DNA of 64,000 nt from a virus. The DNA lies in the IMG/VR virus record IMGVR_UViG_3300005663_000003, positions 22,672 through 86,671 of that record; one strand, 5' to 3'. The notes under the pieces were generated by a model. It ran no database searches. It had not been told where the DNA came from and saw only the letters and a program-made list of their open reading frames with translations. Positions 3,377 through 64,000 of the stretch are shown here, piece by piece. Numbering within the stretch: position 1 is the stretch's first letter; every line of letters starts with the position of its first letter. A program made the translations under genes and the position numbers.

Positions 3377-3591
3377 AGCGTAGAAGGCAAGACCTCGAAG
3401 ACTTGGGTGAGGTGGTTGAGCGAGCCTTTGGGCGTGTGCTGGCGCAAGCGTTCGGTAAGAGTGAGGAAGCAGGAGAAGAAGGGATCCGGACGGAGTCGGC
3501 AACCTACATAGGACACGACCCGAAGACCGGAGCGAGGACCGAGGCCAATGGCAACAGCCGAACTCAGAGGAGTCATCAGCGGCGACGCTAG
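2660..3591 (+). CDS. Tail assembly chaperone, -1 frameshift fusion (GT-like)
   Basis: Ribosomes slipping -1 on GGGAAAG (3241-3247, read G GGA AAG) leave the G frame and enter a frame open from 3196 to the TAG at 3591, giving a fusion of about 310 residues. The T-like part is protein-like: YYKLQATERLRWLTPERF, then an AIERRRQDLEDL helix. It overlaps the tape measure start by 44 nt, as T does in lambda-like phages. Only a minority of product should be the fusion, which links the chaperone to tube subunits. Slippage itself is inferred from the sequence. Confidence 0.75.
3241..3247 (+). promoter_or_regulatory. -1 programmed ribosomal frameshift slippery site GGGAAAG
   Basis: The heptamer fits X XXY YYZ in the frame of the 2660 gene (codons TCG GGA AAG) and is identical to the lambda G/T slippery sequence. 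The -1 frame downstream is open for 345 nt and encodes plausible protein up to the tape measure start. GC-rich sequence just downstream could supply a stimulatory structure. Confidence 0.8.
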
Positions 3592-6500
3592 TGAGTTCGT
3601 CGCGGCCTCGACTCAGGCCCAGCGATCCCTGGGCGCACTCGGCAAGACCGGGGCGACGGTCGCCACGCAGCTCCAGAATGTGCTGGGAGGAACCGGGACG
3701 CAGCGCGATGCGCTCGGTCGGTTCACGAAGAACGCAGGGAAGGCTCGCGACGCGCTCGGGCGTTTCAAGAAAGAAGGCGCGGCGACTTCCTCCATCTTCT
3801 CCAAGCTGCGCAACACGCTCGGCAAGGTGGGGAGGTCGGCCATCGACGCGGGCAAGTCGGCGGCCTCTGCGTTCCGTTCGGCTGGCGGAATCCTCAAGGA
3901 CATCGCGATCGGCGCCACTGCGGTTGTTGCTGCGCTAGCCGCGATCGGCGGCGCGGCGGTCGTGAACTTCGCCAAGTTCCAAACCGCCTTTAGCCAGGTC
4001 CGCACCCTGGTCGACGAGTCGCAGGTCGACGTCCAACTGCTGAGCGACGGCGTGCGTGAGCTGTCGGTGCGGTTCGGTGTCGACGTCACCGAGGCGACGC
4101 GAGCGGCCTACCAAGCGATCAGCGCCGGGCAGGACCCCGCGAACGTGGTGAACTTCCTCGCCACCGCCTTCGAGAATGCGGCGGCTGGTGCGGCCACCGT
4201 AGTCGAGTCGGTCGACCTTCTGACCTCGGCCCTTAACGTGTTCGAGTCACAAGGGCTCACCGCTGAGCAGGCGTCGGACATCCTGTTCAAAACTGTCGAG
4301 CTTGGCAAGACGACCATCGCCGAACTCGCGGCGAGCTTCGGCCAGGTTGGACCCATCGCCGCTGCCGCCGGGGTGAGCTTCGCCGACCTCGGCGCCGCGC
4401 TCGCGACGACGACGGCCCAAGGCTTGAGCACTGCCGAGGCGTCGACCGCAATCAAGGCGGCCATCGCCGGGATCGTCAACCCGGCTAAGGGGGCTGCTGG
4501 CGCTCTCGAAAGCATCGGCGTCAGTGCGCGGAGTCTCAGAGAGGAGGGCCTGGTCGCGACGTTCGAGAGGATCGGCGACGCGACCGGCGGGGCCATCGAG
4601 AACATCGTAAGGTTCCTCCCCAACATCCGTGCGGTCAACGCGGCGGCGATCCTCGCGGGTAGTGGCCTCGACAAGTTCAGGGCGGCGGCTGAAGGGACCT
4701 CGGATTCAACCGGCGCCGCGTCGCGCGCCTTCGAGAAGCTGGTAGCCGACATTGCCCGAACGTTCAGCATCATCCGCCAGACTCTGACGGACACCTTCCG
4801 CCAGATCGGCGAAGCCTTGACGCCGATCGTCGGTCAACTCGGCAACGTGTTCAGCGCGTTCGCTATGAACACGCGCACAGAGGTCATCGCCCTGACTCGC
4901 GTTCTCGGCGCTCGGTTCGCTGACGCTGGGGACTCGATCGAGGATTTCGAGGCGACGGTGAGCAGCTCGGGCGGCGCGATCAGTCTCGGGCTGAGCGCCG
5001 TGAGCGCCGTGCTGGAAGGTCTCGCCGACGCATTCAATTCGGTCGCCCGCCCCGTCGGCGCCATCGCGGCGTCGTTCGAGTTCCTCGCCACCATCCTCAA
5101 GTCCGCGCTCCTGTCGGTCGTCTCGCTTGTCACGATCGCGCTCAATGGGCTGCTACAGATCATCGTGGGAATCCCCGAGGCGCTCATCCGTCTCGTCTCC
5201 ACGGTCGCCGACTTCATCCCCGGACTCGACGGCCTGGTCAAGAGCCTCGACAAAGCGAGCACCGGACTCAAGGACATCCGCGACGAGGCGCAAGCCTTCT
5301 CGGATTCTCTGGAGGAGTCGCAAGAGGCGGCGGTAAAGGCTGCTGAGGAGTTCGACTTCTCTGCCGTGTTGAATGAAAGTGCGAAGGCGGTGCGTGAAGT
5401 TGGGACCAGCTTCGCGGAAGCCGCCAACGATGTCGAGGACTTCGGCGAGGAAGTCGCAGCGGCAGTGCGCGAGGCGCAGGCCCGGGGCGAGATCGTGCAA
5501 CTCGGCAGCGACCTCAAGACGACGGCAGCCGAGGCGAAGGGCGCAGCCGAAGCACTCACCGAGTTGGGCGAGGCTGGAGCCGGGGCGACCGCCGGGCTCA
5601 ACGCCGCGACGACTGCGACCACCGGACTGAGTCAAGCTCTCCAGGGGATCGCAGGCGGAAGCTCAGAGGCGGCGCGCGGGCTCGCCGACCTCGGGCCTAA
5701 GGCGATGGAAGTCGCCGAGGCCATCGCGGGGATCGGGGCGGCTCAGACCGATGAGCAAGCCTTGGCCCGGCGGCAGGAAGCCATCGCGAACCTGATCGCG
5801 GCGGCGGATGCCGAACTGTCCAAAGCCATCACTGCAGCTCGCGACCGGGGCAGGGAGCAGCTACAGGAAGCGGAAGCGAACCTGCGCGCAGCCCAGGCGA
5901 CCGCACAGGAAGCGGCTGGGACCGAAGTCTTCGCCGCTGCGTTCCGGGAGGAGCGCCGCGCAGCCGACGACCTTGAGGCCACGGTTCGCAGCGTTAACGA
6001 TGCGTTCAACGCCCAGCGCGCCTTGGCGCGCGAAGTCTTCGACTCGGTCATCCAAGACATCGGTGGGATCGATGGCGCGCTGGAGGTCTTCCGCACGGAC
6101 TCCATCGCCAAGGCTGCGACAGCCGGGCGGGCGACCACGGCAGAGGCACGCCGCGTGTTCGACAGGGAAGTGGCCCGGCTGCGTGAGGCGCGGGCCGCTT
6201 CGGAAATCGAGGACGTCGCCTTCTTCGATCAGCTCAATGCAGCACGCGCCCGGCTCAACCAAACCGTGGAGGATGCTGGCGACACGTTCGAGCGGGCGCG
6301 CGACCAGGCCGAGGCTGCCTTCGACCTCGGCACTCAGACGGCATCGGTCAACGAACTCGCAGACGCTCTCACCGGTCCGTTCGCCGAGGCGGTCCAGCAA
6401 GCGCGCGAGGATGCCGAGACGTTCGGCTTCAGTCAGGAGGAGTTGAACGAGGCCCTCAAGGGGATCGTCGAGCAGTCGGAGGAGACGGGCGAGAGCGTTG

Positions 6501-7081
6501 TGGACCTCGCCGAGGACTTCGAAGACCTCGGCGAGTCGGCCAAGGACGCAGCGGCGGACCTCAAGGAGTCGGCACGCATTGCCGAGGAAGCGGCCACCAG
6601 CTTCGAGAACGCGTCCGCTCGGTTGACTCAGGCGCAGAGCTTCGCAAGAACCGGTGTCGGCGTGCGGTCAGGTGGCGAGACCCAGGCGCAGGTAAACGCG
6701 CGGTTCGGCGGCCTGCGGTTCGGCATCCAACAGCAGCCCCGGACCACGGGCAGGCGCAGCATCACGGGCCGGGCTATCAGCGAGTCGGGACAGATCGCGC
6801 CGCGCGGCATCCTGAGCTTCGACCTCGGTGGCCCGGTGCGGACCGACCAGCTCGCGCGCCTCCAGGCTGGCGAGACGGTCCTCAGCCGCTTCGACACGGC
6901 GGCCCTTCGGTCGATCCTCGGCAGTCGAGGCGGCGGCGCAGCCACCAACATCATCAACGTCTCGCCGACCTTTAATATCGAGGGCGGGAACGCAGAGGAC
7001 AACCGCGCGATGGCCCGCAGCCTCATCCCGGAGATCACTCGGGCGGTAGACCTCGGAGTGGTCGGGAAGGGGGTGCTGTGA
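3548..7081 (+). CDS. Tape measure protein
   Basis: 1177 residues, the largest product in the window. It sets tail length and is probably ejected with the DNA. The N-terminal part has the TP901-type minor tail region: a hydrophobic segment (IAIGATAVVAALAAIGGAAV, about 115-135), then ATTTAQGLSTAEASTAIKAA and IAGIVNPAKGAAGALESIG. A second hydrophobic stretch (LLSVVSLVTIALNGLLQIIV) lies near residues 520-540. Long Ala/Glu-rich coiled-coil helices fill 590-1010. The C-terminal part (LSFDLGGPVRTDQLARLQAG) is typical of tape measures. At about 0.15 nm per residue the tail would be near 175 nm. Confidence 0.93.
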   Translation: MATAELRGVISGDASEFVAASTQAQRSLGALGKTGATVATQLQNVLGGTGTQRDALGRFTKNAGKARDALGRFKKEGAATSSIFSKLRNTLGKVGRSAIDAGKSAASAFRSAGGILKDIAIGATAVVAALAAIGGAAVVNFAKFQTAFSQVRTLVDESQVDVQLLSDGVRELSVRFGVDVTEATRAAYQAISAGQDPANVVNFLATAFENAAAGAATVVESVDLLTSALNVFESQGLTAEQASDILFKTVELGKTTIAELAASFGQVGPIAAAAGVSFADLGAALATTTAQGLSTAEASTAIKAAIAGIVNPAKGAAGALESIGVSARSLREEGLVATFERIGDATGGAIENIVRFLPNIRAVNAAAILAGSGLDKFRAAAEGTSDSTGAASRAFEKLVADIARTFSIIRQTLTDTFRQIGEALTPIVGQLGNVFSAFAMNTRTEVIALTRVLGARFADAGDSIEDFEATVSSSGGAISLGLSAVSAVLEGLADAFNSVARPVGAIAASFEFLATILKSALLSVVSLVTIALNGLLQIIVGIPEALIRLVSTVADFIPGLDGLVKSLDKASTGLKDIRDEAQAFSDSLEESQEAAVKAAEEFDFSAVLNESAKAVREVGTSFAEAANDVEDFGEEVAAAVREAQARGEIVQLGSDLKTTAAEAKGAAEALTELGEAGAGATAGLNAATTATTGLSQALQGIAGGSSEAARGLADLGPKAMEVAEAIAGIGAAQTDEQALARRQEAIANLIAAADAELSKAITAARDRGREQLQEAEANLRAAQATAQEAAGTEVFAAAFREERRAADDLEATVRSVNDAFNAQRALAREVFDSVIQDIGGIDGALEVFRTDSIAKAATAGRATTAEARRVFDREVARLREARAASEIEDVAFFDQLNAARARLNQTVEDAGDTFERARDQAEAAFDLGTQTASVNELADALTGPFAEAVQQAREDAETFGFSQEELNEALKGIVEQSEETGESVVDLAEDFEDLGESAKDAAADLKESARIAEEAATSFENASARLTQAQSFARTGVGVRSGGETQAQVNARFGGLRFGIQQQPRTTGRRSITGRAISESGQIAPRGILSFDLGGPVRTDQLARLQAGETVLSRFDTAALRSILGSRGGGAATNIINVSPTFNIEGGNAEDNRAMARSLIPEITRAVDLGVVGKGVL

Positions 7082-50027: not shown

Positions 50028-51809
50028 ATGTCCGATCGCTACCACGTCCACACGGGCGACGCTTTGGAATGGCTTCGGACCCTGCCCGCCGGACACGGCG
50101 ACTCGGCGGTGCTCGACCCGCCCAGCGGCATCGGGTTCATGGGCAAGGACTGGGACAGCGACAAGGGCGGCGCCGAGAAGTGGATAGCGTGGCTCCGTGA
50201 CATCCTCGCGGAGCTGCGCCGGGTCCTCAAGCCGGGCGCGCACATCTGCGTGTGGGCGATCCCGAGGACGAGCCACTGGACAGGGATGGCGATCGAGCGC
50301 GCGGGCTTCGATGTCCGCGACTGCCTCACCCACATCTTCGGGAGCGGCTTCCCCAAGAGCCACAACATCTCCAAGGCCCTCGACAAGCTGAAGGAGGACA
50401 ACCGCGAAGAGGTCGACGAGTGGCGCACATGGCTGACGCTCGCCCGCGACCTGGCCGGGATCACGAACAACGACATCGACGCGGCCTTCGGCTTCAACGG
50501 CATGGGCTGTCACTGGACGAGCCACCCGACCCAGCCCAGCATCCCCAAGCTCGACCAGGTCCCCACGCTGCTCGACCTCGTCGGAGTCGAGGAACTCCCC
50601 GAGCGGATGCGCGAGCTGCTCCTGAAGCTGAACGACGAGAAGGGGAAGCCCGGCGATGCTTGGTTCCGTCGCGAGGTCGTCGGGACGAAGCGCGTCAAGA
50701 ACATCCAGGCGGGCGACTTCTACGCCCCCGGCGAGGGCAGCTACCAGCAGCACGACGTTCCCGAGACGGCGCCCGAGACGGACATGGCGAAGGAGTGGGA
50801 GGGGTGGGGCACCGCGCTCAAGCCAGCCGCTGAGTTCTGGTGGCTCGGTCGCGTCCCGCTCGACGACATCATCGCCCGGAACGTGATGCACCACGGGACA
50901 GGCGGCCTCAACGTAGACGGCTGCCGGGTGGCTGGCGACGTCCCCAAAACAGTCCAAGGTCTGAGCACCCGCATCTATGGTGGCGGGAAGGGCCTACGGT
51001 CCGTGGCTCAGGAGTTCACGCCGAACTCGGGCGGGCGCTACCCCCCGAACCTCCTGCTGACTCACGACGAGGGATGCGACGACGACGACTGTGCGCCGTG
51101 GTGCCCCATCAGGATGCTCGACGAGCAGAGCGGCCAGCAGAAGGACGGCGTGGCAGTCAAGCGGAACCTGCCCCCCGAGGGAGCGCGTAACGGGCTCGAC
51201 CTCCAGGTGCCCGCCACGCAGCGCGGACCCGACGAGGGCTACGGCGGTGGCGGCGGCGCGTCCCGCTTCTTCCCCCGCTTCCGCTACCAGGCGAAGCCGA
51301 GCCGGGCGGAGCGGGAGGCCGGGCTCGAAGCCTTCCCCCTCAAGTCGGCGAAGAAGTGGAACGAAGGCGGCATCCAGGGGAGGCGCGACGCGAAAGCCGA
51401 CGCGGCCATCGCCGACGCCGAGGTCCACAGTCAGGGGCTCGACGCCCGAGGGCGCACGCTCATCCGGGCCGACGGATCGAAGACCCTCGTCGACCGCTTC
51501 ATTCCCCAACACCGCGCCAACATCCATACAACTGTGAAACCGATCAAGCTGATGCGCTGGCTCATCCGCTTGGTTACACCACCGGGTGGATTGGTCATCG
51601 ATCCCTTCACAGGGTCGGGAACAACCGGATGTGGCGCCATGCTCGAAGGAGCGAGGTTCGCAGGGTCTGAACAGAACGAGGAGTATGCCCGGATCGCACG
51701 GGCCCGGATCGCACACTGGGCTGGCGAGCAGTATGAGTTGGAGCCGCTGGGAACGGCGGCGCCGCCAGTAAAGCCGACAGCGCCTGACCCTCAGTTGTCG
51801 TTGTTCTGA
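50028..51809 (+). CDS. Beta-class DNA methyltransferase (N6-adenine or N4-cytosine)
   Basis: 593 residues. Motif IV DPPSG (30-34) lies in VLDPPSGIGFMGKDWDSD near the start, and the AdoMet-binding motif DPFTGSGTTG (about 525-534) near the end: the IV-before-I order of the beta class, with the target-recognition region between. DPPS in place of DPPY is a known variant in phages. The last part (GARFAGSEQNEEYARIARAR) is motif I/II. Probably methylates phage DNA to escape host restriction; the sequence specificity cannot be read. Confidence 0.85.
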   Translation: MSDRYHVHTGDALEWLRTLPAGHGDSAVLDPPSGIGFMGKDWDSDKGGAEKWIAWLRDILAELRRVLKPGAHICVWAIPRTSHWTGMAIERAGFDVRDCLTHIFGSGFPKSHNISKALDKLKEDNREEVDEWRTWLTLARDLAGITNNDIDAAFGFNGMGCHWTSHPTQPSIPKLDQVPTLLDLVGVEELPERMRELLLKLNDEKGKPGDAWFRREVVGTKRVKNIQAGDFYAPGEGSYQQHDVPETAPETDMAKEWEGWGTALKPAAEFWWLGRVPLDDIIARNVMHHGTGGLNVDGCRVAGDVPKTVQGLSTRIYGGGKGLRSVAQEFTPNSGGRYPPNLLLTHDEGCDDDDCAPWCPIRMLDEQSGQQKDGVAVKRNLPPEGARNGLDLQVPATQRGPDEGYGGGGGASRFFPRFRYQAKPSRAEREAGLEAFPLKSAKKWNEGGIQGRRDAKADAAIADAEVHSQGLDARGRTLIRADGSKTLVDRFIPQHRANIHTTVKPIKLMRWLIRLVTPPGGLVIDPFTGSGTTGCGAMLEGARFAGSEQNEEYARIARARIAHWAGEQYELEPLGTAAPPVKPTAPDPQLSLF

Positions 51810-54644: not shown

Positions 54645-55079
54645 ATGTTCGAGCTACTCGCAGAAGCAGGCGCGTCCGGCTTCGACTGGGTCGGCGCTGC
54701 CACATTCGTCACAGCCGTCGGCGGTATCATCGTCGCGCTCCTCCAGTTCCTCGGGAAGAAGGACGCGGCGGCCAAGGCCAAGCAGGCGACCGCCGCGCTC
54801 GGGGCGACCATTCGGGGCGTCGAGGTCGCGGCCCGGGAGGGCGACTTCACCGACCTCACCAAACAACTCAAGGAGCAGACCGGCCTAGAGCTGACGCCTC
54901 AACAGCTCAGGCTGATCGCGAGCGGCGCGACGAAGGCGGTCAAGGGTTCCATCAAGGCGACCTCCATGGAACACAGCGTGGCCGACTACCTCGCGGCGAT
55001 CGTCGAGACCCGGACCCAGCGGCTCGAACTCACGCCCGAGCAGAAGAAGAAGCTGGCCGAGGAGGCCGACGCCGAGTGA
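54645..55079 (+). CDS. Membrane protein, holin-like candidate
   Basis: 144 residues, GGAGGAG site. One transmembrane segment near the N-terminus (FVTAVGGIIVALLQFLG, residues 21-37) and a soluble helical part (TPQQLRLIASGATKAVKGSI, TPEQKKKLAEE). Size and topology would suit a class III holin or a lysis regulator; no endolysin gene is nearby in the window. GTGA overlap with the next gene. Confidence 0.45.
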   Translation: MFELLAEAGASGFDWVGAATFVTAVGGIIVALLQFLGKKDAAAKAKQATAALGATIRGVEVAAREGDFTDLTKQLKEQTGLELTPQQLRLIASGATKAVKGSIKATSMEHSVADYLAAIVETRTQRLELTPEQKKKLAEEADAE

Positions 55080-55267
55080 TTCGAGTGACCCACACCTACG
55101 CCATTCTCGACGTGAGCCCCGAGCTATATACCGAGGTCCGCGAGAAGCTGGAGGCCGCTGGTTACCAGCACGCGTTCCACGATCGAGAGGACGGCGGCCC
55201 GGTCATCGACATGCACGGCATCGCGCTGCGCGCCGAAGAACCAACCGAACCGAAGGACACCAAGTGA
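55076..55267 (+). CDS. Small hypothetical protein
   Basis: 63 residues from GTG 55076, GTGA overlaps on both sides. A beta-alpha-beta fold is likely (THTYAILDVSPELYTEVREK, then YQHAFHDREDGGPVIDMHGI). No family recognised. Confidence 0.5.
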   Translation: MIRVTHTYAILDVSPELYTEVREKLEAAGYQHAFHDREDGGPVIDMHGIALRAEEPTEPKDTK

Positions 55268-55548
55268 AGCGACTCATCATCCTCCTGCTCGTCATGCTGA
55301 TGGCAGGCTGTTACGCGGCGCCCCCTGAGGCGCTCGACCTCATCAACGATTCCATCTCCGTCACGGCGGGCCATGCCAAGGACCCTCACGACGAGCTGAG
55401 CCCCCTCGGCCAGTCGGCGTTCGAGGCAGACCACGACGCCTGGCAGAAGGTCAGGTATATGGTCTTCGGTGTCGACGTCGACCCCGAGGTCAAGGCGCGG
55501 ACCGAGGCGAGGGCCGCCGCACACGGTCACCCGGAACCCGGCGAGTGA
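55264..55548 (+). CDS. Lipoprotein, o-spanin candidate
   Basis: 94 residues from GTG 55264. Signal peptide KRLIILLLVMLMAGC with lipobox L-M-A-G-C and lipidated Cys16, then a soluble acidic domain of ~78 residues. Lysis outer-membrane spanins have this size and anchor. The genes nearby encode membrane and coiled-coil proteins. It points to a Gram-negative host, but a lipoprotein of another role (e.g. superinfection exclusion) is possible. Confidence 0.6.
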   Translation: MKRLIILLLVMLMAGCYAAPPEALDLINDSISVTAGHAKDPHDELSPLGQSAFEADHDAWQKVRYMVFGVDVDPEVKARTEARAAAHGHPEPGE

Positions 55549-55793
55549 AGCCCGCACGTCAGGCCGGGCGGACTCTCGCGGAAGCCGTCCGGTCCGTGAA
55601 GCCACAGCGGGCCAAGACGTTCACCGCAGCCAACGGAGAGGAATACGCCGTCGGCCCGAGCGGGTTCATCCCCGCGAGCGCGGAGCGCGCTCGTCGCCAA
55701 CGGATGACCCCGCGCGAGAAGGAGGAGGCGAACAGCCATCGCGGCCTCCTCACCAAGGGCCGCAAACGGTGGCGCAGGAAGTTCGGCGCATGA
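55545..55793 (+). CDS. Basic hypothetical protein
   Basis: 82 residues from GTG 55545. Arg/Lys-rich with TFTAANGEEYAVGPSGFIPA in the centre and a very basic end (GLLTKGRKRWRRKFGA). 4-nt overlaps with both neighbours. May bind nucleic acid; unknown. Confidence 0.45.
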   Translation: MKPARQAGRTLAEAVRSVKPQRAKTFTAANGEEYAVGPSGFIPASAERARRQRMTPREKEEANSHRGLLTKGRKRWRRKFGA

Positions 55794-56092
55794 GGGCGAA
55801 GACCGCCAAGCTCATCGCAGCCTGCGGGAAAGCCCTGCCGGGCGAGACGGAGGAGAGCCTACTGAGGCAGTGGCGCCGGGCGAGCACGCGCGAGCGCGGC
55901 CAGCTCCGGGCCCGCTGGACCCACCAGGTCAAGACCTTCGCAGCGCGGTCGAGGAAGATGAAGGCGGATCGCGCGGAAGCGAAAGCACAGGGCAAGGTCC
56001 ACGTCCCGGGGTTCGGCGCCGTGGCCCCGCCACCAGGCTCGACGGTCGAGCAGTTCGAGAAACAAGTGAAGAACATGAGGAGGAAGAAGTGA
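55790..56092 (+). CDS. Basic helical hypothetical protein
   Basis: 100 residues from ATG 55790 (ATGA overlap). Helical (ESLLRQWRRASTRERGQLRA), with a KVHVPGFGAVAPPPGSTVEQ loop and Lys/Arg-rich end. No family recognised. GTGA overlap with the following gene. Confidence 0.45.
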   Translation: MRAKTAKLIAACGKALPGETEESLLRQWRRASTRERGQLRARWTHQVKTFAARSRKMKADRAEAKAQGKVHVPGFGAVAPPPGSTVEQFEKQVKNMRRKK

Positions 56093-56556
56093 GCGAGCTA
56101 CTCGACGCCCTGCACAAAGCGGGCGACAAGGTCATCGACGGCAAGGCCCCCGAGCTGATCGCCGACCTGCTGGTCGACGGTGAGGCGCTGGCCGAGAAAC
56201 ACCTGACCGGTGACCTCGAACCACTACGCGGCCCGGCCCTCGACGCCATCGAAGTCCTCAAGGACGACAAGGTGGTGAGCGCGGTGGCGAGTCTGACGAA
56301 GGCGGGATTCGCCCGCGTCATCGGACTGTTCGAGAGCGGCGACAAGCACGGAGCGAGGCGCGTTTACATGGCGACCGAGGCCACCGCGCAAGAGCGTATC
56401 GACTTCCAGAACGCGAGCGGCGATGCTGCCGTGCTCCTGTTCGACAAGCGAGCGCGCGAATGGGAGGCCCTCGTCGAAGCGTTCACCCGCATCGGGAAGA
56501 TCGCCCTCAAGGCACTCGGCGCCGTGGTGCTCGGGCTCATCGGAGTCAAGCTCTAA
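56089..56556 (+). CDS. Hypothetical protein with C-terminal membrane helix
   Basis: 155 residues from GTG 56089. Mostly alpha-helical; the last 20 residues (IALKALGAVVLGLIGVKL) are hydrophobic and could be a tail anchor. Last gene before a strong terminator. It may belong to the lysis-type cluster or be an inner-membrane structural protein. Confidence 0.45.
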   Translation: MSELLDALHKAGDKVIDGKAPELIADLLVDGEALAEKHLTGDLEPLRGPALDAIEVLKDDKVVSAVASLTKAGFARVIGLFESGDKHGARRVYMATEATAQERIDFQNASGDAAVLLFDKRAREWEALVEAFTRIGKIALKALGAVVLGLIGVKL

Positions 56557-56585
56557 ACCAGATTCGTGTGTGTGTTTTCCGGTGG

Positions 56586-56624
56586 AGGCCCGGCCAGCTC
56601 GTCGCTGGATCGGGCCTTCGCTTT
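56586..56624 (+). terminator. Rho-independent terminator
   Basis: Bipartite stem: AGGCCCG (56586-56592) with CGGGCCT (56611-56617) and an inner CCAGC/GCTGG (56594-56598/56604-56608), followed by TTCGCTTT. It ends the lysis-type cluster. Directly after it a -10-like TATGTT (about 56639) probably starts the next transcript. Confidence 0.7.
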
Positions 56625-56688
56625 GTCGTCGCGCCTTGTTATGTTAGCCGTGTTGACACGGATAGCACCAAGCCGAACAGGAGACAAC

Positions 56689-56925
56689 ATGCCCCGCTTC
56701 TTCGTGGTCCACGGATACTCAAGCCCCGATAACTACGCGAAGAACGGCGGCCCCGTTCTGGAGATCACCGAGGCCGAGACGCCATCGATGGTCGCGAACC
56801 TGAGGTTCGAACACGAGCAGTGCATCAGCCATCGCGAGGCGAACCAGGGAGTCTTCCGAGTCTTCGAGCGCGAGCGGTTCATGGTCGAGAAGGAGCGCGT
56901 GACCGAGTGGGAGCTGAAGGCTTGA
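56689..56925 (+). CDS. Small hypothetical protein
   Basis: 78 residues from ATG 56689 (AGGAGACAAC upstream; the frame open from 56566 begins inside the terminator). MPRFFVVHGYSSPDNYAKNG starts a beta-alpha fold; FRVFERERFMVEKERVTEWE is the last strand-helix. No family recognised. Probable first gene of the operon from ~56640. Confidence 0.5.
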   Translation: MPRFFVVHGYSSPDNYAKNGGPVLEITEAETPSMVANLRFEHEQCISHREANQGVFRVFERERFMVEKERVTEWELKA

Positions 56926-57317
56926 CCCGACTACGCGACGACGAACTAGAGCGACTCGCGGTCAGCCGACAGCGGCGCATCAGTTCGATGGCGACCGAGC
57001 TGCTCCAGGCTCGCGAGCGCGGACTGATGCCCACGGTCGACCTCGCCACCGAGCTACTAGTGAACCGCATCCCCGTCGAGATGAAGGACGGCACCTACGT
57101 CGCCATCCCCGAGGCGGCCCTCCACGTCTGCGCGTGGACTCCCGAGGAAGGCGGAAAGGGGAAGACGACGCAGGTGCATCTTCAGTTCGAGGCGGGCGAG
57201 GGCGTGAGCTTCGTCCACCGGATGAAGAGTGGGCCCGCCGTCGATCAGCTCATCATCCTGCTAGCCGAATACAGGGCCGAGGTCTGGCCTCAATACAGGG
57301 GAGTCAGAGTCAGGTGA
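56922..57317 (+). CDS. Hypothetical protein
   Basis: 131 residues from TTG 56922, chosen because it overlaps the previous stop as TTGA, the same style as the many ATGA and GTGA joints here. Helical N-terminus (RDDELERLAVSRQRRISSMA) and a beta C-terminal part (TQVHLQFEAGEGVSFVHRMK). Convergent with the minus-strand gene, 2 nt apart. Confidence 0.5.
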   Translation: MTRLRDDELERLAVSRQRRISSMATELLQARERGLMPTVDLATELLVNRIPVEMKDGTYVAIPEAALHVCAWTPEEGGKGKTTQVHLQFEAGEGVSFVHRMKSGPAVDQLIILLAEYRAEVWPQYRGVRVR

Positions 57318-57319
57318 TG

Positions 57320-57685
57320 CTAGGCTTGACGAGCCCGGCCCGCACTGCTCTGCCAGGCGTCCATCGTCTCTGGGTGGTCCACGATCAGAGACCGCGTCGA
57401 CCCGAGGGTGGCATCGCCACGAACCGGCGTCACCGAGATGATCAGGCGCTGCTTGCCAGGCGCGAGCGTATCGATGACCGGGACGATGCTGATGGTGTAG
57501 AGGTCTTGGACATCGACGCCACCGCTTTCGTCGGCGTCGGCCAGGACGGTGATGGCAGCCTCGCCGTCCGCCCCAACCGCGAGCGGCGCCTCAGCCGTCG
57601 GCGTCTCGGCGCCCGTGAAGGTCAGGGCGATGGGGGTATCGTTGATGGTGATGACCTTCTCGCGGTCGTAGTTCTTGTCGCCCAT
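57320..57685 (-). CDS. Hypothetical protein on minus strand
   Basis: 121 residues with a strong minus-strand ribosome site (GAGGAGAAG, 5 nt from ATG). Beta-rich (REKVITINDTPIALTFTGAE, then ITVLADADESGGVDVQDLYT and QRLIISVTPVRGDATLG), like a small Ig-type or decoration domain. A possible -10 (TATGCT on the minus strand near 57718) suggests its own promoter. Its reverse orientation within a plus-strand genome marks it as a possible moron-type insertion. Confidence 0.6.
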   Translation of the reverse strand: MGDKNYDREKVITINDTPIALTFTGAETPTAEAPLAVGADGEAAITVLADADESGGVDVQDLYTISIVPVIDTLAPGKQRLIISVTPVRGDATLGSTRSLIVDHPETMDAWQSSAGRARQA

Positions 57686-57758
57686 GGCTTCTCCTCAGGG
57701 GGTTGGTTCTCCACAGAGCATACGACCTGGGGGAGACTTGGGCGACCAGTGAGGCGTT

Positions 57759-57896
57759 GTGGCTGATCTGTTCCCCGACATCGAGATGACCCGGTCGGCA
57801 GAGTTCAGCCCATGTGGGGTCTACCGATACAGCCTCACCCGCGTCTGGGACGTGGAGCTGGAGTTCCAGGAGCGGCACAAGGAGTGCAAGGCATGA
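57759..57896 (+). CDS. DUF1643-like miniprotein or truncated DUF1643 remnant
   Basis: 45 residues from GTG 57759. MTRSAEFSPCGVYRYSLTRV followed by W matches the start of DUF1643 ('FSPcGxYRYsLtRxW'), which is normally about 150 residues, but here the frame ends 14 residues later. The stop overlaps the next gene by ATGA, so the short version may still be translated. A decayed or miniaturised DUF1643 gene. Confidence 0.5.
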   Translation: MADLFPDIEMTRSAEFSPCGVYRYSLTRVWDVELEFQERHKECKA

Positions 57897-58351
57897 GCAA
57901 AGATGCGGGGCGGTGGCTGATCCTCCACGCGCCCAACTACGTGGTGAAGCACGTCGCCGAGCTGGCCGAGTCGAAGGCTGGCACCGAGGAGCTGCGCGCC
58001 GTGCTCGCCTCGGTCGCCAAGGAGCGGACCGAGCTGCGCGGCAAGTTAAAGGAGAGGGGCGCGCGGTGCAGATGCTGCGGTGGATTCGCTCAACCCGCCG
58101 AGTGTTCTACCTGCGCCAGTGGCGAACACGGTTACCCAGGGTGCAAGACCCAGCCCGATCCGCAGGCCGCCATCAGGAAGGTCATCGAGGAGAACGTCGA
58201 CGAGGCTGTCGAGATGGTTTGGAACGCCCACAAGGATCGCGACGAGCTGCGCGCCGAGGTCGAGAAGCTGAAGGCCGGGAAGCCGACCTGCGCCGAGTGC
58301 TGCTTCGTGGTCACGATCGCCTGCGAAACCTGTGGGGCGAAGAAGCCGTGA
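57893..58351 (+). CDS. Zinc-finger and coiled-coil hypothetical protein
   Basis: 152 residues from ATG 57893. Helical N-terminus, then CRCCGGFAQPAECSTCASGE, a helical stretch (RKVIEENVDEAVEMVWNAHK) and a second cluster (CAECCFVVTIACETCGAK). Two zinc ribbons are likely. Function unknown. Confidence 0.5.
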   Translation: MSKDAGRWLILHAPNYVVKHVAELAESKAGTEELRAVLASVAKERTELRGKLKERGARCRCCGGFAQPAECSTCASGEHGYPGCKTQPDPQAAIRKVIEENVDEAVEMVWNAHKDRDELRAEVEKLKAGKPTCAECCFVVTIACETCGAKKP

Positions 58352-58641
58352 GCGCGCTCACCGATGCTACGGCCCACGAGGCCCGGTCTATCCCGTTGGT
58401 CGGTTGCTCGGTGTGCGACCTCAAGCCCGGCGACTGCACCCGGCCGACTCAGTGCCGGAAGAAGCAGTGCGACGTCCTCGGCTGCGTCCAGCCGAAGGAC
58501 CCCGAATACACCAGAGGCGCGATCGTGGGCGAGTGGACCTGGTGCAGGACTCACGGCCAGCTCTACAGGAATCAGACGGCCCACCACCGCGCGGCGGCCA
58601 AGCTGCTCGACGGCGCCGAGCGCCACGGTGTCGTGCTGTGA
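58348..58641 (+). CDS. Cys-rich hypothetical protein
   Basis: 97 residues from GTG 58348 (GTGA overlap). Clusters CSVCDLKPGDC, CRKKQCDVLGC and a later C. Enough ligands for two zinc ions. HGQLYRNQTAHHRAAAKLLD forms the C-terminal helix. Function unknown. Confidence 0.5.
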   Translation: MSALTDATAHEARSIPLVGCSVCDLKPGDCTRPTQCRKKQCDVLGCVQPKDPEYTRGAIVGEWTWCRTHGQLYRNQTAHHRAAAKLLDGAERHGVVL

Positions 58642-58961
58642 GGAAGCCGAGGAAGGCACGGGGGCGCCTGCTCTCCAAGAGAACCCGAGAAGCTCTTGCG
58701 AGTCCCTCACTCTGGGTCGTCGTCGCCCCCTATTGTTGTAGCGAAGACTCCTTCGCCGACGAGACGACCATCAGCCATTCCCAATCGAGGGCCATCACCA
58801 AAGGCGTCAACCGGTGGTGCGATCGGACAGACCAGCCCGACCTCTGCAACGTCCTCCCCTGGAAGCTCGAACGCGATCACGCATGGTCACGCGCTCGCGC
58901 GTGGCGCCAGCTCTACCGCAAGGGGTTCAGATGCATCCGAGTAAAGCTGGCTCCACGGTGA
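58638..58961 (+). CDS. Basic hypothetical protein
   Basis: 107 residues from GTG 58638. Arg/Lys-rich ends (KPRKARGRLLSKRTREAL; RAWRQLYRKGFRCIRVKLAP). Centre has several Trp and Cys (WVVVAPYCCSEDSFADETTI). No family recognised. Confidence 0.45.
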   Translation: MRKPRKARGRLLSKRTREALASPSLWVVVAPYCCSEDSFADETTISHSQSRAITKGVNRWCDRTDQPDLCNVLPWKLERDHAWSRARAWRQLYRKGFRCIRVKLAPR

Positions 58962-59153
58962 CCGATCCGAACGAGGAGATGGCGCAGAGGATCAAGACGC
59001 TTGGGGAGTTGGGCCTGAAGATCGTGGACACCTACCATGGCGGGGAGGGGGACCGCGCTGCGATGCAGAATCGAATACGAGGGGCTACAGTTCGAAATCG
59101 AAACCGACCTGCTGGCCGCCGGGCTTCCATGTCTGAAGGAGCTAATGAAGTGA
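58958..59153 (+). pseudogene. Possible frame-shifted small gene
   Basis: Starting at GTG 58958 (GTGA overlap) the frame encodes a natural-looking MTDPNEEMAQRIKTLGELGL and IVDTYHGG, but from about 59060 that frame becomes Arg-rich (RNRNRPAGRRAS) while another frame (ATG 59037) becomes natural (YEGLQFEIETDLLAAGLPCL, stop 59151-59153 in GTGA overlap with the next gene). A one-base indel near 59055-59065 would join them into one gene of about 64 codons. Confidence 0.4.
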
Positions 59154-59416
59154 GCGAGCCCGAGCGCGTTCCGCTCGAAGTCCTCAAGAAACACCAGGCG
59201 TTCATCGAGCGCACCGGTCCCAAGAGCTGGAGCGCTGTTCAGTGCGTCACCACCGGGCAGACGAACCAGCTCGTCGACGAGGTCATCGAGCTGCGCGAGG
59301 AGGTCGAGAATCTGCTCGCGTGGATTCGCGGGAACCACCGCGACGTGTCGCCGAAACAGATATGCCTTTGCTGGCCCTGCCGAAACTACCCGCCCAAGAG
59401 AAAGGGGAAGGCGTGA
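59150..59416 (+). CDS. Hypothetical protein with Cys motif
   Basis: 88 residues from GTG 59150 behind AAGGAG. Opens MSEPERVPLEVLKKHQAFIE; an acidic helix (LVDEVIELREEVENLLAWIR) then CLCWPCRN near the end. No family recognised. GTGA overlaps on both sides support the start. Confidence 0.5.
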   Translation: MSEPERVPLEVLKKHQAFIERTGPKSWSAVQCVTTGQTNQLVDEVIELREEVENLLAWIRGNHRDVSPKQICLCWPCRNYPPKRKGKA

Positions 59417-59691
59417 CCGAGCTGGAGAACGGGATGCACATCGTCGAAGCCGAGCCCTCGACGCTGGCCCCTTACCCCGTGGAGTTCTGCGAGATGTGCG
59501 GACACCCGATGCCCGAGGGATGCATCGGTCGGTGCGCCGACTGCCCGAGCCTCGATGAGCAACGGCGGTGGGAGTGGGAGGACTTCTACGCCTGGGGTGG
59601 CTGGCGCCGAGCGTTCGGGGAATACACCGATGAGGAGTGGGAGAGCGCCGACAATTCACGAACCGTCTGCGGATTTGGGAGGAGCCTATGA
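59413..59691 (+). CDS. Zinc-binding hypothetical protein
   Basis: 92 residues from GTG 59413. CEMCGHPMPEGCIGRCADC contains a full set of ligands for one zinc ion, followed by a Trp-rich acidic part (WEWEDFYAWGGWRRAFGEYT). ATGA overlap with the next gene. Function unknown. Confidence 0.5.
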   Translation: MTELENGMHIVEAEPSTLAPYPVEFCEMCGHPMPEGCIGRCADCPSLDEQRRWEWEDFYAWGGWRRAFGEYTDEEWESADNSRTVCGFGRSL

Positions 59692-59961
59692 CGAAGACCG
59701 TGGGCGGGCGCGTCCCGTTCGAGCCCGGCACGAAGGTGTGGGACAAGCTCACGAACCAGGGCCCGTGGATGATCGTCGAGGATGACGGCGGCGAAACGGT
59801 GAAGGTTTACACCGGGGGCTGACGGCGGCGAAACGGTGAAGGTTTACACCGGGGGCTGGGGCGACTTCAAGAAACACCAGACCGCCTACTCTTCGGACGC
59901 CTACGCCTCTTGCCTCACAACCAAACGCCCCCGCCGTTGGTGGCTTCTCTGGATCGCCTGA
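59688..59961 (+). pseudogene. Small gene broken by a 37-bp tandem duplication
   Basis: The frame from ATG 59688 (MTKTVGGRVPFEPGTKVWDK) now stops after 44 residues at 59822. The stop lies at the junction of an exact 37-bp tandem duplication (59784-59820 and 59821-59857). Removing one copy restores a 78-codon frame that continues WGDFKKHQTAYSSDAYASCL and ends at the TGA of 59959-59961, in perfect TGATG overlap with the next gene. It is a recent frame-disrupting duplication or an assembly artefact. Confidence 0.7.
59784..59857 (+). repeat. Exact 37-bp tandem duplication
   Basis: Two identical 37-nt copies in direct tandem, 59784-59820 and 59821-59857, with no mismatch. Their identity indicates a very recent event. 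37 is not a multiple of three, so the copy number decides whether the surrounding gene is open or closed. Confidence 0.95.
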
Positions 59962-60320
59962 TGGGCTGGGCCTACTGCGGTGAGGATGACCTGGGCCGAC
60001 CGATCGGCTACTGCGCTGAGGCGTGCTGCGACTTCGAGAACTGCTACGCCGTCATCGATCGCGGTCTTTCCTACGCCTGCGGTGGGATGCACGGCGACGT
60101 GGGCGCCGAGGGGGAGCCCGCCTGTCGCCGCTACTTCTGCGAGCATCACCATCGACGGGATCACCACGACTGCCCGACGGCAGGCGAGCGAGTCTCCTAC
60201 TCCAAGACCATCGAGACCGAGGCGGGGACCGCCATCCTCAAGGGCTACGTCCAGGACGGAACCTTCACCGTTGTCCACATCTCCACCGTCGGCGTGGAGA
60301 ACGAGGAGCCTGATGCCTGA
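59961..60320 (+). CDS. Zinc-finger protein (AN1-like pattern)
   Basis: 119 residues from ATG 59961 (TTG 59910 would be an upstream alternative). WAYCGEDDLGRPIGYCAEAC and YACGG are followed by CRRYFCEHHHRRDHHDC, close to the AN1-like arrangement in the 36015 protein. Then a beta part (ERVSYSKTIETEAGTAILKG). Probably two zinc ions. Function unknown. Confidence 0.5.
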   Translation: MGWAYCGEDDLGRPIGYCAEACCDFENCYAVIDRGLSYACGGMHGDVGAEGEPACRRYFCEHHHRRDHHDCPTAGERVSYSKTIETEAGTAILKGYVQDGTFTVVHISTVGVENEEPDA

Positions 60321-60753
60321 TCCGAACAAACACGCCGCGCTCGCGGATAGCGGCTTCAAGATTCAACCGACCTGCTCGACGTGTGTGCATTGGTGCCCAC
60401 AGTCGATCGCGCCCGAGTGCCGCTGGGGTGGCTGCGCGTTGAAGCCCTACCACCATGCCAAGCACAGCGAGGAGAAGAAGGTGGGCACCCCGTCCATCGG
60501 TTGGTGCCCCGACTACGGGCAAGACCTCCGCTCGGTTTGCTTCGAGGTCGGAGACGACTACGCCGCGCGCTACGCGGTGAGTGGGCAGGCCGGAGACCTC
60601 GATGGTGAGCCCCTCCCATTCCAGCTCCTCGTCACGAAGTGCACCAGGATCTATTCAGGTCTGCCTCCTGAAGACCGCGAACTGAGCATGGCGATGCTCA
60701 AAGCGTTCAGCTCCACAGTCCGCGAACTCCGGGAGCAGCTCGCCGATGGCTGA
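60313..60753 (+). CDS. Zinc-binding hypothetical protein
   Basis: 146 residues from ATG 60313 (8-nt overlap). Clusters CSTCVHWCPQSIAPECRWGG and C-A-L, then GWCPDYGQDLRSVCFE; the 'CxxCxxW' part resembles small phage zinc proteins. The end is helical (MAMLKAFSSTVRELREQLAD). Function unknown. Confidence 0.5.
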   Translation: MPDPNKHAALADSGFKIQPTCSTCVHWCPQSIAPECRWGGCALKPYHHAKHSEEKKVGTPSIGWCPDYGQDLRSVCFEVGDDYAARYAVSGQAGDLDGEPLPFQLLVTKCTRIYSGLPPEDRELSMAMLKAFSSTVRELREQLADG

Positions 60754-61234
60754 CACTCGGCTCCGTGAACTCGAACGCCGCTCAGCCCAGGGAGACGTGG
60801 CCGCCCATGCCCGCCTCGTCGTCGAAAGGAAGAAGCTGGGCGAGTGGACGGAGCCCGTCCATCTCCAGGGTGGCAAGTCGCACATCGACGCGAGCATCAC
60901 CATCGGCGTGTGCGGCGCGGCCAAATTCGTATACGAGAAGGGAGCGACCGAGCTGACCGCGAACACGATGACGATGTTTGAAGGCACCCCGTCTGGCCGC
61001 CGCTCAATCCTCGTCCTCACGACCGAGCCCGGCCTAGTGACGTGCGGGGGCTGCAAGCGCACCCGGAAGTTCCGGGGCCTGACTCCGTCGGCCGACCCGA
61101 GGAAGATTCACCTACAGAAGTGGCTCCAGCCTCCCCATGAGACCGAGTGCGGCATCGAACACATCCCACCTACGCATCTCACCTGCGACTCGAACCAGGC
61201 GACCTGTAAGCGATGCCTCCGGTGCGCCCTGTGA
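60746..61234 (+). CDS. Hypothetical protein with Cys clusters
   Basis: 162 residues, 8-nt overlap. An N-terminal helical segment (LRELERRSAQGDVAAHARLV), similar to short bacterial helical repeats in which 'xRRxAxGDxxAxxRLxxE' occurs, is followed by a beta domain and the clusters VTCGGCKRTR and CDSNQATCKRCLRC. Last gene before the structural promoter at 61.27 kb. Confidence 0.5.
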   Translation: MADTRLRELERRSAQGDVAAHARLVVERKKLGEWTEPVHLQGGKSHIDASITIGVCGAAKFVYEKGATELTANTMTMFEGTPSGRRSILVLTTEPGLVTCGGCKRTRKFRGLTPSADPRKIHLQKWLQPPHETECGIEHIPPTHLTCDSNQATCKRCLRCAL

Positions 61235-61244
61235 GCCTCACCTG

Positions 61245-61294
61245 ATCCTCACTTAGCGGCGGGGCGTTGACTTGTCCTCACCGGGCTGTAGACT
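61245..61294 (+). promoter_or_regulatory. Promoter of the second structural module
   Basis: -35 TTGACT (61267-61272), 16-bp spacer, -10 TAGACT (61289-61294), followed by an ACGAGGAGAGG ribosome site. Just upstream (61245-61254) is the 10-mer ATCCTCACTT, also found at 17066 and 27050 in front of other structural genes. Confidence 0.7.
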
Positions 61295-61317
61295 GAACCT
61301 CAAACGAGGAGAGGCCC

Positions 61318-61638
61318 ATGGGTTTGAGGTTCGTGCGGGTCGGCCAAGGAGCCGACGCGGGACTCGACGAAGTCGTCCGCGCCGTGATGACTTTCGACGA
61401 CCTCTATACCGCTCCGGGTGGCGAGTCGCTCAACGCGCGACAAACTCCGCTCAAGGTTGGGGGGCGCCTCGACTGCATCCAGTTCGAGGCCCACCCCACC
61501 TTCGTCTTCTTCTACAACCGGACGGACGAACGCTCCGGGCAGCTCGTCGTCATGCAGGCGGTCGGCGGTTTGACCGAGGTCCCGAACGACACGGACCTTT
61601 CAGCCGTCTCCGTCAACTGCACCATCAGAGGTAGGTGA
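61318..61638 (+). CDS. Hypothetical protein, fibre-module leader
   Basis: 106 residues. Beta-rich (LDCIQFEAHPTFVFFYNRTD, GQLVVMQAVGGLTEV). First gene behind the 61.27 kb promoter and directly before the glycine-rich adhesin, so perhaps its chaperone or attachment protein. No family recognised. Confidence 0.5.
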   Translation: MGLRFVRVGQGADAGLDEVVRAVMTFDDLYTAPGGESLNARQTPLKVGGRLDCIQFEAHPTFVFFYNRTDERSGQLVVMQAVGGLTEVPNDTDLSAVSVNCTIRGR

Positions 61639-61641
61639 CCC

Positions 61642-63480
61642 ATGAGTGATGAGCATCTCGGCGTCGTCGCTGACGCGATCACGGCAGGCGTCGGAGGTAG
61701 CGAAGCCCTCGCACCTACGCTCGTCTTCGGCAACACGACCGGCGAACGCGCGATCGTCCTCAACGGGACGACCGCCGCGCTCCGCACGGTCAACGGCACC
61801 GACGGTGCCGCTCCCCTCGGGGCAACCTTCCGAGGCGGCAACGCAACGGGGGCGGCAGGCGGCGCGGTCGGCAACTTCCTCGGCGGCAACGCGGCCGGTG
61901 TGGGCCAGGCTGGAGGCAACGCCATCCTCCAGGGCGGTGCGCCGACCGACGGCAACGGCGGCAGGGCCAACGTCCAAGGTGCTTCGGGAGTCGGGGCCGA
62001 CCGATCTGGCGGGCTCGTGTCCGTCATCGGTGGCGCGTCGACCGGCGCGGCTGACGGTGCGGCGGCGACGCTCGAAGCCGGAGCCGCTACCGGAGCCGGT
62101 GCCACTGGAATCGGAGGAGCGACAGACGTTCGCGGCGGCATCTCGGTCGACGGCGCGGGAGGCCCGGTCGTCGTAGCGGCGGGTAGTAGCACCGGGCTCG
62201 GGGCCGGTGGTCCCCTCGACGTGCGAGCGGGCGACACGTTCGGCGGGACGGCGGCGGGTGGCGCGGCAGCGTTCCGCGCTGGCAACTCGATCGGCGGTCA
62301 AGGCGGCGCGGCCAGCGTGGTCGGCGGCTCGTCGGGCGGCGCGAACCCCGGAGGCGGGGCGGCTGTCCAAGGTGGAGCCGGGGGCGCAACCTCGGGCGCT
62401 GGCGGACCGGCGAGTGTGACCGGCGGGGCAGCAACGGCTGGCGTCGGTTCCCCTGGCGGCGCGGCGAGTGTGACCGGTGGAGCTGGCTCGATCGACAACG
62501 GCGACGGCGGCGCGGCCTCGGTCACGGGCGGCGCGGCTATCGCCGAAGGTGCTGGCGGCGCGGCGAGCCTGACCGGCGGGGCAGGGTTCCTCACGGGAAG
62601 CGGCGGCGACGCGACCGTCCTCGGCGGCGCACCTGGTGCGACCGGCGTCGGTGGCACGGCGAGCCTCGAAGCAGGCGACGGCGGGGCTACTTCGGGTGCC
62701 GGTGGACAAGCGATCGTCCAAGGCGGCCAGGCCAACGCCGGGGACTCGCCGGGCGGTGCCGTGACCGTGGCGGCTGGTAATGGATCTGGAACTGCGGCCG
62801 GGGGCGCGGCGTCTTTGACCGCAGGGGACGGCGGCTCGACCAGTGGCATAGGAGGTTCGGTTTCTGTCCAAGGGGGCGACGCACAAGGATCGTCCGGTGT
62901 CGGCGGCGCTGCGTCACTGACGGGCGGCGCGTCGACTGCGGCCTCAGTGGGCGGCGGGGCCACGGTGGACGGTGGACCAGCGCCAGGGACAGGCGTTGGC
63001 GGAACGGCATTTGTTCGAGGCGGCACGGCAACCGCCAACGTCGGCGGGCAGGCGGCGCTCATTGGCGGCACGTCGGGCGGCGCTTCCGCTGGCGGAGCGG
63101 CGACGGTCCAGGGTGGTCAAGCTGGATCGACGGGCGTGGGCGGAACCGCGCAGATCGTCGGCGGCAACCCGATCGACGGCGACGGCGGCCAGGTGTTCGT
63201 CACCGGAACGAACGGAGTCGGGACCGACCGCGCGGGCGGCAACGTCACGGTCGTGGCGGGTTCCCCAACCGGCTCGGGCGCAGAAGGCGTCGTGGCGGTC
63301 GGACTGACGGGTGGAGCCACCACTCGCCTCGGGCAAGCCGCCGGGCTCATGGGTCACTTCGGCGTGGCCGCCGTCGCGCGCCCCGACATCGTTGGATCGC
63401 GCGGGGCCAACGTCGCGCTCCTCGACCTTCTCACCAAGGGCGCCCTCCTCGGTCTGTGGACTGACAGCACCGTCGTCTAG
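61642..63480 (+). CDS. Glycine-rich adhesin / tail fibre
   Basis: 612 residues; about residues 50-555 are repeats of GG-rich units (for example GGAASVTGGA, GGxATVxGG), each about 12-18 residues and more than 25 in number, of beta or polyglycine-type structure. The C-terminal 36 residues end VGSRGANVALLDLLTKGALL then GLWTDSTVV, the fibre-tip motif shared with 28784. The short N-terminal part (VLNGTTAALRTVNGTDGAAP) may attach the stalk. Likely a long host-recognition fibre. Repeat number may vary between relatives. Confidence 0.65.
   Translation: MSDEHLGVVADAITAGVGGSEALAPTLVFGNTTGERAIVLNGTTAALRTVNGTDGAAPLGATFRGGNATGAAGGAVGNFLGGNAAGVGQAGGNAILQGGAPTDGNGGRANVQGASGVGADRSGGLVSVIGGASTGAADGAAATLEAGAATGAGATGIGGATDVRGGISVDGAGGPVVVAAGSSTGLGAGGPLDVRAGDTFGGTAAGGAAAFRAGNSIGGQGGAASVVGGSSGGANPGGGAAVQGGAGGATSGAGGPASVTGGAATAGVGSPGGAASVTGGAGSIDNGDGGAASVTGGAAIAEGAGGAASLTGGAGFLTGSGGDATVLGGAPGATGVGGTASLEAGDGGATSGAGGQAIVQGGQANAGDSPGGAVTVAAGNGSGTAAGGAASLTAGDGGSTSGIGGSVSVQGGDAQGSSGVGGAASLTGGASTAASVGGGATVDGGPAPGTGVGGTAFVRGGTATANVGGQAALIGGTSGGASAGGAATVQGGQAGSTGVGGTAQIVGGNPIDGDGGQVFVTGTNGVGTDRAGGNVTVVAGSPTGSGAEGVVAVGLTGGATTRLGQAAGLMGHFGVAAVARPDIVGSRGANVALLDLLTKGALLGLWTDSTVV
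61840..63300 (+). repeat. Glycine-rich coding repeat array
   Basis: GGCGGCGCGGCGAGTGTGAC-type units recur many times with variation. It encodes the adhesin's repeat domain. The array is the most repetitive part of the window and the place where recombination, length change and assembly error are most likely. Confidence 0.75.
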
Positions 63481-63534
63481 CCCGGGTAGACTAGCGACCC
63501 AAGCAGAGACCAACCATCAGCAGGAGCGAGCCCG

Positions 63535-63807
63535 ATGGACAAGCAGAAGCAGAACAACCGCATCGAAGACATCACCAAGAGGGCAGAGGCGGCAGCCAAG
63601 GCCGCAGCCAACCGCATCGGCGGACTCACCGACGGCCAGGTTCGAAACTGCCTCGGCGTCTTGCCGAAGGACGGGTGGTTCCTCATCAATAACCTGTTCC
63701 ACGGCAGCTCCACTACCTTCAGCGCGGACCTGGTCAAGCCAGCCGCCGAGGTCCAGGTGTTCATCACCGAGCTGCTCAACCACCCGGCCTTCGTAGCCTC
63801 GGCCTAA
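63535..63807 (+). CDS. Small hypothetical protein
   Basis: 90 residues, GCAGGAGCG site. Helical with an Ala-rich start (RAEAAAKAAANRIGGLTDGQ), then NCLGVLPKDGWFLINNLFHG. No family recognised. Could be a fibre-associated or virion protein by position. A TAGACT at 63487 may be part of a weak promoter. Confidence 0.45.
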   Translation: MDKQKQNNRIEDITKRAEAAAKAAANRIGGLTDGQVRNCLGVLPKDGWFLINNLFHGSSTTFSADLVKPAAEVQVFITELLNHPAFVASA

Positions 63808-63816
63808 CCCGCCACG

Positions 63817-64000
63817 GTGTTCTTCGCCTCCAGGCTCCTCGACGAGCTGCGCGTGATCCGCGACCGCGTCGAGGCGAACCGCTGCATCAAGTGCCGCTGC
63901 CCGCTGCCCTCCCTCGTGCGAATGACCTGCCCGGTCTGTTGCCTCAAGGAACACCCGCGCGTCCCGTGGCCGATCGACAAGTCCTACCGCTGGCGAGCGA
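63817..64000 (+). CDS. Zinc-ribbon protein, cut by window end
   Basis: From GTG 63817 an open frame runs past the window edge. MFFASRLLDELRVIRDRVEA leads to CIKCRC and CPVCCL, a four-or-more-Cys zinc site. Only the first 61 residues are visible. It continues the pattern of small zinc-binding proteins. Confidence 0.5.
   Translation, partial: MFFASRLLDELRVIRDRVEANRCIKCRCPLPSLVRMTCPVCCLKEHPRVPWPIDKSYRWRA

Follow-up and report, generated by a model that had tools for sequence, protein, structure and literature searches.

A 37-bp Tandem Duplication That Probably Truncates a Small Gene in a Tailed Phage

Tandem Duplications and Phase Variation in Known Systems

Phase variation by simple sequence repeats operates through homopolymer or short-unit tracts that are present in many copies. 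Among tandem duplications in pneumococcal capsule genes, the longer ones reportedly revert more often, reversion being said to consist in the exact loss of one copy. Spontaneous intragenic duplications of this kind have been described in the pneumococcal capsule genes (type 3 locus, cap8E and tts; Waite 2001, 2003; PMC2600794, PMC4022640). According to the passages of PMC4022640 that deal with continuous culture, acapsular serotype 8 strains lost expression via a tandem duplication within wchA, and the same passages, citing Waite 2001 and 2003, put reversion at about 10^-5 at most where the insertion was nine bp at longest. A case of phase variation at a homopolymer is provided by kpsC, as summarized in PMC13410964, while short tandem gene duplications have been presented as a form of genetic memory in the summary given by a 2025 mBio study (PMC12607827).

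The phage locus described here shares with the pneumococcal capsule genes an ORF broken by an internal tandem duplication. In those genes, however, phase variation was reportedly observed, whereas here there is one sequence, a phage carrier and an orphan gene. The locus also resembles simple-sequence-repeat phase variation in that a change of copy number alters the reading frame; as a candidate contingency locus of that class it was rejected, since it holds two 37-bp copies and not the many short units by which such loci are generally defined. As in the genetic-memory duplications of PMC12607827, a tandem duplication is unstable and can be lost, but those duplications, in the summary of that study, span 2.6-497 kb and confer antibiotic resistance, whereas the phage repeat has 37 bp and breaks a frame. 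Among the literature matches listed, from a collection that lacks most subscription journals, none deals with a short tandem duplication that turns a phage gene on and off.

The Source Phage and the Duplicated Locus

The locus belongs to an 86,671-base IMG/VR virus record, of which bases 22672-86671 form the window (the whole stretch of 64,000 nt that was analysed, to which all coordinates refer). The source is a tailed phage, as indicated by a 1177-aa protein at 3548-7078 with similarity to tape measure families of PHROGs (E 8.4e-51 for the best of them). The product of 50028-51806 resembles phage DNA methyltransferases (E 3.2e-50), and a search of the window turned up no tRNA genes. Relatives of the tape measure protein were present in 20 loci, at 26-35% identity. 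None was found for the gene at 59413-59691 (in viral_contigs) or for those at 60746 and 10852, and megablast of 55000-64000 against the phage collection returned no similar DNA. No close relative of the phage was found in the collections searched, near-identical records possibly lying outside those searches. The features of the locus are the following:

59413-59691, + strand: upstream gene, sharing a four-base overlap (ATGA) with the small gene (sequence, gene scorer)
59688-59822, + strand: 5' part of the small gene, from ATG to a premature TGA, 44 aa (frame reading, codon score, Shine-Dalgarno)
59783-59819, + strand: repeat copy 1 (offset match and Tandem Repeats Finder; register ambiguous by 2 bases)
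59820-59856, + strand: repeat copy 2, its first three bases being the premature TGA; with TG at 59857-59858 included, the match reaches 39 bases
59821-59961, + strand: 3' part of the small gene, shifted into the +1 frame, with 46 codons plus TGA (frame reading, codon score)
59961-60320, + strand: next gene, 119 aa, cysteine-rich; residues 1-65 match phrog_9476 (profile search)

The small gene is one of a series of short genes that follow closely on each other (59413-59691, 59688-59822 and 59961-60320), and its ATG at 59688 is preceded by a Shine-Dalgarno match of five bases. The exact, back-to-back 37-bp duplication that the earlier note had reported inside it was confirmed by direct reading and by Tandem Repeats Finder, which returned an array at 59783-59858 with period 37, 100% matches and zero indels. 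At offset 37 the sequence matches itself over 39 bases, so that the two copies of the 37-bp unit do not differ and the repeat can be drawn in three equivalent registers, with starts at 59783, 59784 or 59785. A copy identity of 97% in one alignment resulted from placing the unit three bases earlier, where GGATG is set against GGCTG.

Such a repeat is beyond chance expectation. When exact tandem runs were sought at periods 2-300, with a minimum length of both one period and 18 bases, the whole 86,671-base record yielded two only, the 37-bp repeat and a 6-bp repeat, and 20 mononucleotide shuffles of the record yielded none. Under the same criteria, 170,901 bases of other loci held two runs, both of 21-bp period, one in L005 and one in L008. 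These exact 21-bp repeats (849-892 in L005 and 1979-2022 in L008) are similarly placed, and the two IMG/VR contigs appear to be close relatives. Within the window, Tandem Repeats Finder detected eight arrays, with periods of 24, 18, 18, 6, 21, 48, 13 and 37, six of them divisible by three (the exceptions being 13 and 37). Not far from the locus, 61642-63480 encodes a 612-aa protein of degenerate glycine-rich repeats, tail-fibre-like by eye only, and a 48-bp DNA repeat lies inside its gene at 62453-62579.

The duplication places a stop codon at its junction, as had been claimed: TGA 59820-59822 follows GGC in the frame of ATG 59688. Because 37 is 36 plus 1, the frame beyond the repeat is shifted by +1, and this +1 frame is open from 59803 through TGA 59959-59961. 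The 12 residues DGGETVKVYTGG are encoded by both copies, each in its own frame, so that an uninterrupted frame would have 78 codons (44 + 46 - 12, a figure obtained by arithmetic and not from a one-copy sequence).

Coding Evidence for a Former Single Gene

Nine large genes of the phage served to train the codon scores. The stretch 59688-59819 scored +25.0 bits in frame 0, where the two alternative frames gave -52.6 and -34.4, while the tail beyond the repeat (59857-59958, 34 codons) scored +2.1 bits in the +1 frame, its alternatives giving -18.4 and -9.4. Of the three forward frames, frame 0 therefore scores best upstream of the repeat, and the +1 frame downstream of it. That 34 codons stay open has by itself a probability of 0.43 at this base composition and proves nothing. 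Control windows of 34 codons were taken from 25 genes outside the training set. Among wrong-frame windows, none was both open and scoring at least 2.1 bits (0/511 in +1 and 0/511 in +2, i.e. 0/1022), whereas, of 511 in-frame windows, 15 did not exceed 2.1. This puts the tail in the lowest 3% of an in-frame distribution that leans high, the control genes having been chosen from a list built with the same scores. The tail is moderately better explained as coding than as out-of-frame sequence, though it is a weak example of the former. A frameshift-tolerant gene model placed no frameshift at the repeat under penalties of 10, 14, 18 or 24.

The same model drew attention to a second region about 0.7 kb upstream. 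It made 14 frameshift calls in the window at penalty 10, most of them probably false, and two at penalty 14 (59069 and 46700). The stretch 58958-59153 may be another small gene with a frameshift near 59069; its coding signal passes from frame 2 to frame 0 at about 59050 and then stays in frame 0 as far as the stop at 59153, and its second part overlaps the gene at 59150 by four bases. Should both breaks be genuine, the presence of two damaged small genes within 0.8 kb would point to local decay or to consensus errors.

The Joint with the Next Gene

In agreement with the earlier note, ATG 59961 overlaps the old small-gene stop, TGA 59959-59961, by one base (TGATG). That this is a local style of joint also holds: among 94 genes called by a simple in-house gene scorer, joints being counted by eye, one-base overlaps account for nine of 93 joints, this one included, and four-base overlaps for 21 of 93, one of these between genes on opposite strands.

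Residues 1-65 of the 119 in the next protein align with positions 1-60 of the 105 in the phrog_9476 profile (E 1.9e-18), a family of unknown function. Relatives were found in seven IMG/VR loci and 109 phage records, and the phrog_9476-like N-terminal part occurs in phages as different as those of Vibrio (ICP1), Caulobacter, Brevundimonas, Aeromonas and Mycobacterium. The joint was inspected in 13 relatives that are not a random sample, namely the seven IMG/VR loci, judged by open frames of at least 40 codons ending near the next-gene start, and six annotated phage records. A one-base stop/start overlap was present in six of the 13 (L002, L003, L004, L031, L032 and L033), three of which (L031, L032 and L033) belong by their records to one subfamily, Dolichocephalovirinae, and are not independent. 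It was missing in the other seven (L005, L006, L007, L008, L034, L035 and L036), where the nearest upstream stop was taken 1 to 107 bases before the start; L006 is ambiguous as to the upstream frame that constitutes the gene, and the loci L005 and L008, with the same 52 bases around the start, may be one case. A tight joint at this start is recurrent, not universal, and supports 59961 as the end of the original stop.

At present, 138 bases separate the premature stop from the start of the next gene. The Shine-Dalgarno match of the latter has three bases, and 13 of 34 genes have three or less. Since a weak match is not unusual in this phage, a loss of translational coupling is something that we infer only.

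Searches for Relatives of the Small Gene

In viral_contigs, pattern searches matched the second half of the small gene 15 times and the first half 10 times; in genome_contigs, with the second half as query, there were 246 matches. None was confirmed in either collection. In the phages collection, neither half matched at E up to 1, and the best 20 of 30 matches of the read-through product at E up to 10 fell between E 3 and 9, which is chance level. With the first half as query, and in a search run without a positive control, nothing was found in nine whole IMG/VR records (seven with a relative of the next gene and two of the 20 with a tape measure relative), and when both halves were compared with loci L002-L008 by tblastn, no match rose above chance level. 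In viral_contigs there was no exact match to the 35-base repeat core. A distant blastn search of 59688-60320 against phages did return 10 records, matching only from 59955 on, that is, in the next gene and the joint. Upstream proteins in two named phages with relatives of the next gene showed by eye no likeness to the small gene. Neither half matched Pfam or PHROGs at E up to 1, and the read-through product had one Pfam match (E 0.035, below the cut-off of that family) and no PHROG.

Neither a one-copy allele nor a homologue was thus found in viral_contigs, phages or genome_contigs, with near-identical records possibly outside these searches. In view of this lack of relatives, the conclusion that there was one intact gene before comes from the codon statistics and the joint, which together indicate that the duplication probably truncates a former single 78-codon frame ending in TGATG.

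Origin of the Duplication and Competing Explanations

On balance, the reading that we favour, and hold to be somewhat likelier true than false, is that of an unselected, recent 37-bp tandem duplication truncating a small orphan accessory gene of a tailed phage. The duplicated stretch ends in GGATG on one side and GGCTG on the other, which are alike at four of five bases and share the final TG outright. Slipped mispairing or template switching between GGATG (59780-59784) and GGCTG (59854-59858; at the junction, 59817-59821) would have produced the second copy; the likeness is enough for slipped mispairing, yet such short likeness is common by chance. The folding of the array was equalled by 1 of 200 shuffles on the + strand and by 29 of 200 on the - strand, and a 5-bp hairpin inside each copy might favour slippage. 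As 37 is not a multiple of three, the extra copy would impose a +1 shift and ribosomes would stop at 59820-59822 after 44 codons. The small gene would formerly have been functional and its truncated protein would be dead, while the next gene, which starts on the old stop, would lose part of its translation through lost coupling. The same slippage could in principle remove the duplication again and make the event reversible. In its simplest form, this would be a neutral or mildly harmful mutation in one phage lineage and not a maintained switch.

The main competitor places the event in the assembly and not in the phage: two contig ends that in truth overlapped by about 37 bases, joined without being merged, would leave a false copy in the record, the real phage having one copy and an intact gene. 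We regard this as a serious but unlikely explanation. The record is an IMG/VR contig, and an error of this type could give exact copies and, inside a gene, a unit whose length is not a multiple of three. It bears directly on the earlier description of a very recent event, which agrees with copies that have not diverged, as would be expected, but the same sequence would be expected from an assembly error. The possible break near 59069, called at penalties 10 and 14, makes a consensus error or local decay somewhat more likely, although that break was not called at penalties 18 and 24. Against an artefact of this sort, the 76-bp array fits within one ordinary short read and most assemblers should generally resolve it, and the exact-run criteria reveal no other such repeat of period above 6 in the record. 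Two ordinary short genes, at 59688-59822 and 59836-59961, could also lie within a repeat by chance, both frames being open and having possible starts, and the simple gene scorer did split them in two. This is very improbable, as GTG 59836, where translation of the second frame could begin at the earliest, lacks a Shine-Dalgarno match of at least three bases, the codon score of the second gene is weak and the repeat itself is left unexplained.

Readings in which the two-copy state has a function fare less well than the favoured one of a chance truncation. The earlier note had proposed a phase-variable switch, in which a one-copy (ON) and a two-copy (OFF) form would interconvert by slippage under selection. 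The locus does carry an exact, frame-breaking tandem duplication inside an ORF, as in intragenic-duplication phase variation, and the Waite papers of 2001 and 2003, the latter as recounted in PMC4022640, attribute phase variation in pneumococcal capsule genes to such duplications. The proposal did not find support here, since there are two copies only, with no one-copy allele and no homologue in the collections searched, and the product matches no known family in Pfam or PHROGs that would point to a trait profiting from switching. The reversibility of a duplication is not evidence of a selected switch, and we consider one improbable. Its extended form, with the small gene and the coupled cysteine-rich gene under reversible 37-bp copy control and bursts that mix ON and OFF particles, appears a little less probable still. 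Recoding is the least credible option: a +1 ribosome shift at GGC TGA C would yield a 90-aa protein, and a single four-base step at TGAC does give a continuous reading of 90 residues in which a 12-residue segment recurs exactly. However, this reading with its doubled segment follows from the 37-bp duplication anyway, and the model of the read-through product, predicted from a single sequence, is of low confidence (mean pLDDT 51.9). By the usual rules, the GGC tRNA re-pairs poorly on GCT, and the spaced Shine-Dalgarno of prfB is lacking, the G run lying within the last two codons before TGA. As a candidate programmed +1 frameshift of the prfB type the site was rejected, having neither the slippery P-site codon nor the spaced Shine-Dalgarno.

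Significance

The kind of event is already known; a phage example would add a new case, and the label of switch needs further evidence. Single-contig "pseudogenes" that contain exact short tandem copies need checks at the level of the reads before being called switches. If the duplication is real, it is a clean case, caught before divergence or loss, in which the stop of the affected phage gene is tied to the start of the next, and a single slip may in this way affect two genes.
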